From Halorubrum coriense DSM 10284 (GTDB lineage Archaea; Halobacteriota; Halobacteria; Halobacteriales; Haloferacaceae): DNA of 64,000 nt. Of this stretch, positions 35,740 through 60,990 are shown piece after piece. Location of the stretch: contig NZ_AOJL01000032.1 of assembly GCF_000337035.1 (NCBI RefSeq), positions 1 through 64,000 on the forward strand, in the 5' to 3' direction. Under the pieces are notes generated by a model. It was not told the DNA's origin, made no database searches, and saw only the letters and a program-made list of their open reading frames with translations. The translations under genes and the position numbers were made by a program. Numbering within the stretch: the first letter of the stretch is position 1; each line of letters begins with the position of its first letter.

Positions 35740-36022
35740 TTTATAAACACCAACTGAGTGTGGCGGCGCGTGCCGACGAGCAGCCGTCGGCTGCGAGTCG
35801 CACGCGCGAGGGAGTCGCGGTCGCCGGAGCGACGCGGAGGCGACCGCGACGAGGCTGGGGAGGCGTGAGGTGCTGTGCGATGCGGTCGGGCGGGACTCGA
35901 AGGGGCAGCCGCGAGGACGAAGCACGGCGACGCACGCACTGGAAGGAGCGAGCGGAGCGAGCGACTGAAGCGCACAGCGAGTCGCGCGAGTCCTCGCGGC
36001 TGGGGCTTCGATGGCGTTCACC
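35740..36022 (+). repeat. structured intergenic element, copy A (candidate non-coding RNA)
   Basis: A TATA-like TTTATAAAC (35740-35748) leads into the element core 35766-36010. Three helices can be drawn. P1: GCGCGTG (35766-35772) with CACGCGC (35801-35807), then CGAC with GTCG, a GA/GA internal loop, and GCAGCC with GGCTGC closed by GTC. P2: 12 pairs, GTCGCGGTCGCC (35814-35825) with GGCGACCGCGAC (35839-35850). P3: 13 pairs, CAGCCGCGAGGAC (35906-35918) with GTCCTCGCGGCTG (35990-36002), flanked by a GGG/GGG loop and outer CGAAG with CTTCG. No protein is encoded. It fills most of the 464-base gap between the divergent ABC and SRPBCC genes; the rest of the gap shows only the SRPBCC promoter. Confidence 0.72.
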
Positions 36023-36722: not shown

Positions 36723-36794
36723 GGGCTCGTAGATCAGTGGTAGATCATCCCCCTGGCACGGGGAAGGCCCGGGGTTCAAATCCCCGCGAGTCCA
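36723..36794 (+). tRNA. tRNA-Ala (anticodon GGC)
   Basis: The 72-base gene folds as a full cloverleaf. The acceptor stem is GGGCTCG with CGAGTCC (one G-T pair), the anticodon stem TCCCC with GGGGA and loop CTGGCAC (anticodon GGC, Ala codon GCC), and the T-arm GGGGTTCAAATCCCC. The discriminator base is A36794; CCA is not encoded. Its last 22 bases (36773-36794) recur exactly at 36986-37007. Confidence 0.94.
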
Positions 36795-53814: not shown

Positions 53815-54071
53815 CTTATAAACGCGGTGGCGCGTGCCTGCGAGTGGCCGCCGAAGGCGGCCGCGAAGCCAGCACGCGCGAGGGACGCGGTGAGCGCTCG
53901 AAGAGCGCGAACCGCGAGGCTGGGGAGGTGTGAGGTGCGGTTCGGGGCGGGGCGGGACTCGAAGGGGCAGTCGCGAGGCGGGCGCAGGCGACGGTAGGAC
54001 CGCAGGGAGCGAGCGAAGCGAGCGACTGAGGACCGCCCCGAGCGTGCGCCCGCCTCGCGACTGGGGCTTCG
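53815..54071 (+). repeat. structured intergenic element, copy B (candidate non-coding RNA)
   Basis: Same element as at 35740 and 60729. CTTATAAAC (53815-53823) precedes the core 53830-54071. P1: GCGCGTG (53830-53836) with CACGCGC (53873-53879), then CTGC with a bulged GC-AG, a GA/GA loop, and GTGGCCGCC with GGCGGCCGC closed by GAA. P2: CGCGGT (53886-53891) with ACCGCG (53911-53916), GA/GA, then GCGCTC with GAGCGC closed by GAA. P3: 19 perfect pairs, CAGTCGCGAGGCGGGCGCA (53968-53986) with 54045-54063, then GGG/GGG and outer CGAAG with CTTCG. The 702-base gap 53660-54361 otherwise contains a 63-base tandem repeat and the MTH865 promoter, and 53660-53814 shows nothing I can support. Confidence 0.74.
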
Positions 54072-54246
54072 GGAGCGTTCGCGTCGATCGGCGGTTTATA
54101 AGCCGTGACGTATGGCCGAGCGACTGGGGCTTCGGGGGCGTTCGCGTCGATCGGCTGTTTATAAGCCGTGACGTATGGCCGAGCGACTGGGGCTTCGGGA
54201 GCGTTCGCGTCGATCGGCGATTTATAAGCCGTGACGTCTGGCCGAG
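54058..54246 (+). repeat. 63-bp tandem triplication, each unit with a TATA-like box
   Basis: Three nearly identical 63-base units run 54058-54120, 54121-54183 and 54184-54246, differing at only a few positions. Each starts with CGACTGGGGCTTCGGG, the same sequence as the 3' end of the structured element, and each contains GTTTATAAGCC or a one-base variant (ATTTATAAGCC in the third) in its second half. The units could supply serial promoters or a protein-binding array for the MTH865 gene at 54362, or be a by-product of replication slippage. They do not encode a protein I recognise. Confidence 0.85.
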
Positions 54247-54301
54247 CGGCCGAGGAGTCGCCGGTGTTCGCCGGCGAGCGCGCAGCGAGAGCTTATCAAC
54301 C

Positions 54302-60610: not shown

Positions 60611-60633
60611 CGCTCCCGAAGCCCCAGCCGCTC
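60611..60633 (-). repeat. stray 3'-tail fragment of the structured element
   Basis: On the minus strand GGCTGGGGCTTCGGGAGCGT repeats the tail of the element and the start of the 63-base tandem units at 54058. It lies about 95 bases beyond the 3' end of copy C. Between the two (60634-60728) and in 60561-60610 I see nothing else. Confidence 0.55.
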
Positions 60634-60728
60634 CGTTATGAGTACTCGACGACGGATCGGTGGTGACCACTGCTGACGCCTCAGTCGCTCGCCGGTACGC
60701 GATCGATACTTCCGCGGTGAACACCTCT

Positions 60729-60990
60729 GAAGCCCCAGCCGCGAGGACTCGCGTGACTCGCTGCCCTCCTCGGTCGCTCGCTCCGTTCGCTCCCCGTGGC
60801 GCTTGCGTCGTCAGGCTTCGCCCTCGCGGCTGCCCCTTTGAGTCCCACCCCGCACGTCAACCGCGCCTCACGCCTCCCCAGCCTCGCGGCTCGTTCGGGG
60901 CTCCCTGCGGTCGCCCCTCACTCACCGCGTCCCTCGCGCGCGCTCCTCGCGGCCGCCTTCGGCGGCCACTCGGAGGCACGCGCCACCGCC
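60729..60990 (-). repeat. structured intergenic element, copy C (candidate non-coding RNA)
   Basis: Same family as at 35740 and 53815, on the minus strand, core 60983 down to 60729. P1: GCGCGTG (60983-60977) with CGCGCGC (60942-60936, one G-T pair), then CTCC with GGAG, a GA/GA loop, and GTGGCCGCC with GGCGGCCGC closed by GAA. P2: CGCGG with CCGCG, GT with AC, GA/GA and GGGGC with GCCCC. P3: CAGCCGCGAGG with CCTCGCGGCTG, GGG/GGG and outer AAG with CTT. It has no TTTATAAAC box before it, unlike copies A and B, though the adjacent GCGGTGGCGCGTGCC is shared with copy B. The gap 60561-61064 holds only this, a tail fragment and the start region of the next gene. Confidence 0.72.

Follow-up and report, generated by a model that had tools for sequence, protein, structure and literature searches.

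The window analyzed here, a 64,000-nucleotide stretch on a 141-kb contig of a 3.65-Mb haloarchaeal genome, carries three full-length copies (A, B, and C) of a single element. These are members of a previously unnamed family of non-coding dispersed repeats in salt-loving archaea. The initial annotation of this DNA had described three elements with a common architecture, and this was borne out for all three. Each copy has the same order of parts, namely GGYGGCGCGTGCC, hairpin P1, GCRCGCGCGAGGGA, hairpin P2, GAGGCTGGGGAGGYGTGAGG, a variable linker, GGGYGGGACTCRAAGGGGC, the arm P3, and GGGGCTTYG, and each consists of two modules: M1, which holds the hairpins P1 and P2, and M2, which holds a helix P0, an invariant GGG/GGG loop, and the long arm P3. 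The features of the three copies are as follows.

35740..35747, no strand given: TATA-like tract 5' of copy A
35765-36022, + strand: copy A, full-length
35765..35805, + strand: copy A hairpin P1, whose internal loop is a tandem GA (M1)
35806..35813, + strand: copy A conserved linker GCGAGGGA
35814..35850, + strand: copy A hairpin P2, 12 bp, a unit of block exchange between copies
35851..35870, + strand: copy A conserved core of M1, GAGGCTGGGGAGGCGTGAGG
35888..35906, + strand: copy A 5' core of M2, GGGCGGGACTCGAAGGGGC, with G-tracts 1-3 and the 5' side of P0
35906..36002, + strand: copy A long arm P3, including the tandem GA ladder and a GNA-type apex
36000..36010, + strand: copy A 3' end of M2, CTGGGGCTTCG, with G-tract 4 and the 3' side of P0
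53829-54085, + strand: copy B, full-length
53829..53935, + strand: copy B module M1 (P1, P2, core)
53950..54071, + strand: copy B module M2 (P0, GGG/GGG, P3 with 19-bp stem)
54061..54250, + strand: copy B 3' units, three in tandem, 63 bp, each CTGGGGCTTCGG...TTTATAA...CGAGCGA
60984-60720, - strand: copy C, full-length
60866..60984, - strand: copy C module M1
60728..60850, - strand: copy C module M2
60616..60738, - strand: copy C degenerate 3' units

The 3' units recur in other copies as exact 57-bp repeats (63 bp after copy B), often with TTTATAA at a fixed position.

The finer details that had been reported for the hairpins were also confirmed. Beside the tandem GA loop, the P1 stem reads CGAC/GTCG in A and CTCC/GGAG in C, and B has CTGC and an additional bulge; the change from T-A to T-G in P1 is located in copy C. 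P2 forms a perfect 12-bp stem in A and has other, yet self-complementary, sequences in B and C, and the GGG/GGG loop in P3 is present in all three window copies as well as in 27 of 27 aligned copies. Such a pattern had been judged hard to obtain by chance, and our controls agree. Motif GGSACTSRAAGGGGCAG, with 0.1 occurrences expected in the window, was found exactly at A, B, and C; copy A folded as RNA gave z = -3.9; and none of 500 shuffles of P3 reached any of five measures. A covariance model of M1 scored A, B, and C at 112-124 bits, all three having been part of its training set, and the next match in the window at 21 bits.

The observation of three copies was correct but understated, since the family has ~60 copies in this genome and reaches through the whole order, with tens to more than 100 copies per genome in many salt-loving archaea. 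BLAST with copy A as the query recovered 49 pieces in the copy's own genome, and the covariance-model scan that had been proposed as a check gave 64 M1 matches there at E <= 1e-3, a count that includes partial copies and whose weakest members may be chance. Among the matches listed, all 52 of 52 genomes of the genus were represented. The 15-base M2 core was present in 173 of 293 genomes drawn across the Halobacteriales, with as many as ~170 exact matches to the motif in one genome; the reversed pattern, which served as the control, was nearly absent in the order-wide search. Other families keep the architecture unchanged, with GGGACTGAAAGGGGC...GGGGGCTTTC, and copies are intergenic. Plasmids and viruses were rejected as the main home of the repeat, given that 7 plasmid records matched copy A and 16 viral contigs matched the 15-base core (some perhaps by chance), none of the viral contigs with the Halorubrum form of that core. 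The initial annotation had recognized no described class, and this claim holds: a search of 4227 Rfam families at curated thresholds returned only a tRNA gene (the sole match in the window, at 36723-36794 on the + strand), and permissive thresholds added nothing beyond chance matches. The core motif was absent from the haloarchaeal literature searched, in which repeat surveys yielded only work on PATEs, SMRs, and MITEs, and the repeat is apparently undescribed.

The fold of M2 is strongly supported. Across 27 copies of the P3 arm, 98.6% of cells were paired and 20 of 32 pairs had changed on both sides, and sliding the partners by 1-3 columns lowered pairing to 28-40%. Covariation exceeded both the column-shuffled and the slid controls in these copies, with some inflation from hairpin exchange. 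Distal P3 is a ladder of two-base-pair blocks parted by GA/GA loops, in which each block covaries individually and the 2x2 loops are GA/GA in 23-25 of the 27 copies. P0 closes the arm outside the invariant GGG/GGG loop; its outer pair is C-G in 131 of 135 Halorubrum copies and G-C in other genera (17 of 17, and 50 of 51 in a larger set). Among 120 distinct copies, there were 126 G.T/T.G pairs versus 26 A.C/C.A pairs; the bias went one way in 20 pairs and the opposite way in 6, and some columns supplied most of the excess. Because G.T far exceeds A.C, the selected fold lies on the strand named in the initial annotation. That one strand is selected to fold fits RNA or single-stranded DNA equally. 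P3 ends in a GNA triloop at its apex in 82 of 132 copies, compared with 7 of 172 triloops in imperfectly matched control hairpins. GNA and GNNA loops yield exceptionally stable DNA minihairpins (PMC4686876), although GNA triloops are not specific to DNA and are found in RNA as well.

The surroundings of the copies and the arrangement of their modules bear on whether RNA or DNA is folded. The sequence [TC]TTATAA occurs no more than 45 nt 5' of GGCGCG in 33 of 98 copies, mostly at 11-20 nt, with a second AT peak ~27 nt further 5' of these TATA-like boxes, and it lies exactly 31 nt past the 3' end in 43 of 115 copies. AT-rich tracts are found on both sides of the element. With the TATA spacing seen most often, 11-14 nt, archaeal transcription, which begins ~23-24 nt downstream, would start within P1, and no promoter or terminator was found consistently at the right distance. 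Orientation relative to neighboring genes showed no clear bias among 30 copies of this genome with heuristic gene calls, and a cis-regulatory UTR element was rejected for that reason. In some elements, M1 is inverted relative to M2, placing the modules on opposite strands. The cores of divergent M2 doublets (L274, L276, L273, and other pairs) are separated by 24-26 nt in two genera and by ~100-106 nt in another genus, so that doublet spacing is fixed per lineage, as in REPINs. Fixed-spacing inverted M2 doublets were not found in Halorubrum, though they are present in some other genera.

Because of the lack of a clear orientation bias, the M1/M2 inversions, the head-to-head M2 pairs, the TATA spacing, and the GNA apex, we lean toward a structured repeat at the DNA level. 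Together with the inverted P3 interior and the replacement of hairpins described below, the module inversions, divergent doublets, and absence of a clear orientation bias are DNA-level behavior. We tentatively favor an ancient, order-wide, non-autonomous, non-coding repeat with two separable modules, which depends on single-strand structure and is REP/ERIC/PATE-like in kind. The recognized object would be the single strand in its folded state, with exposed DNA a likelier form than RNA. The repeat would spread rarely, as transposon cargo or by means of some candidate enzyme, and gene conversion between copies would keep the family uniform. Against this reading, no driving enzyme was found, and Y1 genes are missing from several copy-rich genomes; the purine-rich conserved linkers and the fold kept across families also fit RNA.

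The main rival is that of a new structured non-coding RNA family, in which the + strand would be transcribed at many copies and would act as RNA, and we consider it possible but unlikely. The enrichment of TATA-like AT-rich boxes and the second AT peak beyond them would suit transcription, but their commonest spacing puts the start inside P1, and the divergent M2 pairs leave no space for promoters. Strong covariation, tolerance of G.U on one strand, linkers rich in purines, and the lack of an Rfam match all agree with a folded transcript, yet M1 and M2 are sometimes on opposite strands, orientation is without clear bias, and a GNRA tetraloop caps P3 in only 1 of 132 copies. What stood of the original proposal, a covarying RNA under selection, was the conserved, covarying, strand-specific fold without an Rfam match; its identity as RNA was unsupported.

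G-tracts are a regular part of M2. GGG lies 0-3 nt ahead of GGGACT in 140 of 143 Halorubrum copies, and GGGN precedes GGGACT in 65 of 78 other copies. Since two upstream GGG tracts are added to the GGG/GGG loop, each M2 has four G-tracts. Judging from the sequence, these could fold into a G-quadruplex and clamp P3 at its base in a cytoplasm rich in potassium. There are reports of quadruplexes in the DNA and the RNA of archaea, among them Haloferax volcanii (PMC12873603). A broader proposal, which we regard as doubtful, is that M2 is a widespread haloarchaeal structured module of RNA or single-stranded DNA in which the tracts of GGGYGGGACT(S)RAAGGGG...GGGGCTTY would form a quadruplex clamping P0/P3 with the GA ladder. 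Such a quadruplex-duplex would be adapted to molar potassium, and its partners would be M1, a plasmid non-coding region described below, or another M2.

Comparison of related genomes indicates that the positions of the copies are largely inherited. Relatives retrieved with a neighboring protein mostly carry the name Halorubrum. At least 13 species have the element at site A, where it is missing in others. Many genomes of the genus have a copy at site C with an unchanged distance to the gene start; the site is empty in two (G167 and G020) and eroded in one (G031). Between two genomes with flanks ~95-97% identical (G016 and G021), 9 of 10 sites were common. Orthologous copies whose flanks are about 97% identical differ by replacement of the whole hairpin P1, P2, or P3; one ortholog has the interior of P3 inverted (L114 versus L119), and loops hold inserted hairpin cassettes. 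From the whole-hairpin swaps, the inverted P3 interior, and the cassettes, we conclude that hairpins are exchanged while linkers are kept. This exchange is responsible for part of the apparent covariation between copies and raises the covariation counts, but it cannot account for the kept GA/GA and GGG/GGG mismatches or for the G.T excess.

Swapped hairpins, foreign cassettes tolerated in loops, and an invertible P3 interior could all be produced if the elements were GC-rich palindromes without selected function, maintained solely by recombination through block exchange and inter-arm correction. We already disfavor this explanation as improbable, as the GA/GA and GGG/GGG mismatches persist although inter-arm correction should have removed them, G.T is almost five-fold over A.C, and linkers are kept across families. 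A clear case of hairpin-sized gene conversion was seen in a pair of orthologs with near-identical flanks (L104 and L105), in which P2 was swapped for another complete hairpin. Other small hairpin-pair cassettes, such as ...TTCGAGAC..GTCTCGTCATGACGAAAG..CTTTCGAACGA, were inserted in hairpin loops or in the linker; the loci bearing cassettes are L011, L017, L082, L102, L111, L119, L125, L127, and L130, and the cassettes resemble further repeat families.

Some copies are carried by larger mobile structures. In 600 kb of one species (G168), 3 complete and 2 partial copies lie inside composites of 595-659 bp that have inverted repeats GGCTYTGTTGAAATCCT and also 8-bp duplications, which were identified by eye in the flanking sequence. 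These terminal repeats are presumably akin to those of the ISH1 group. If ISH1-like MITEs had the element as their interior, were spread by their transposase, and had lost the terminal repeats to decay in most copies, such composites would be expected; we find this very improbable, as the ends occur on only 5 of the 59 copies in this 600 kb, where they belong to the larger composite and the other copies are without them, no GGCTYTGTTGAAATCCT-type terminal inverted repeat is present in the window, and a MITE interior does not need a conserved fold. It had been suggested that copies found only next to transposases would weaken the RNA proposal; some copies do lie inside transposon-like repeats with terminal inverted repeats in one species, but most do not. 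Positions in many species suggest that bare elements are older than the composites. No fresh insertion of a bare element was caught, nearly all sites being common to close species, and 3 of the 4 clean site polymorphisms examined were composite MITEs; active transposition of the bare element was therefore rejected. Composite MITEs with ISH1-like inverted repeats and the element as cargo were seen at L153-L172 (concatenated positions 342085-342744, 352793-353389, and 380209-380804), and at least one was inserted in the AT-rich tract beside another copy, in opposite orientation.

The least probable explanation, a palindrome-associated or IS200/IS605-derived element moved by a Y1 transposase, agrees with the top-strand-specific hairpins, the lack of terminal inverted repeats on most copies, the AT-rich tracts flanking both sides, and the insertion of cassettes in palindromes, as reported for Haloquadratum (PMC3119063), but Y1/IS605 dependence was rejected because no Y1 gene was found in seven genomes with 42-158 copies (G016, G019, G058, G160, G204, G207, and G286, the last only 77% complete) and M1/M2 ends were absent from the ten Y1 loci inspected. 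With PF01797 as a proxy for the RAYT superfamily, no RAYT gene flanked by the repeats was found.

The repeat that we favor can be compared with several known systems. ERIC-type repeats of enterobacteria are intergenic imperfect palindromes of ~100-250 bp with old shared positions and internal insertions, and the haloarchaeal element is alike in each of these respects. We know of no sequence relation between the two, and the element differs from ERIC by its two modules and its strand-specific tandem GA ladder. With structured RNA families in Rfam it shares a conserved, covarying fold on one strand, although none of them matched, and with ISH1-group MITEs it shares terminal repeats and duplications in one species, most copies being without them. 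PATEs and SMRs of Haloquadratum walsbyi are transposase-free palindromes present in many copies, with small-repeat insertions and core deletions, and PATEs are tied to IS605-type ends (PMC3119063). The element is likewise haloarchaeal, transposase-free, palindromic, and multi-copy, with small repeats inserted in palindromes and core deletions, but neither IS605-type ends nor Y1 dependence was found for it, and its fold is far larger and modular. REP, BIME, and REPIN sequences of bacteria are intergenic, high-copy hairpins of 20-40 nt (PMC3116915, PMC2817692). The element resembles them in being intergenic, in high copy number, hairpins, and alternating orientation, and, in some genera, in fixed-spacing inverted doublets; in contrast, it is ~120-260 nt long, has conserved linkers and a long covarying arm, and requires no RAYT-type gene. 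The element thus works much like REP/ERIC/PATE-type repeats but lacks those defining features of PATEs, RAYT-driven REPs, and MITEs that were tested.

An order-wide repeat here keeps a complex single-strand fold across a large evolutionary distance. This implies either that haloarchaea possess an unknown enzyme or host factor able to read single strands in folded form, or that a large RNA family has escaped notice. The repeat is of importance in both cases, as a large class of structure-dependent DNA repeats or as an RNA that has been overlooked. The family is naturally suited to studying G-quadruplexes at molar potassium and gene conversion at the level of single hairpins in polyploid archaea, and it illustrates how exchange between repeats can mimic RNA covariation.

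On many plasmids, M2 adjoins a gene for an OB-fold protein. This protein was not adopted as a partner of M2, given that the conserved plasmid region beside it is also present without M2 and that the systematic survey covered plasmid copies only. The region itself, seen on plasmids L339-L349 (e.g., L341:2446-2950), is a conserved non-coding stretch of ~500 bp with several inverted repeats that adjoins the gene for the OB-fold (single-strand-binding-like) protein, and possibly serves as an origin or a transfer element of the plasmids. It had blastn matches on 165 plasmid records from many genera, in part with M2 at its far end.
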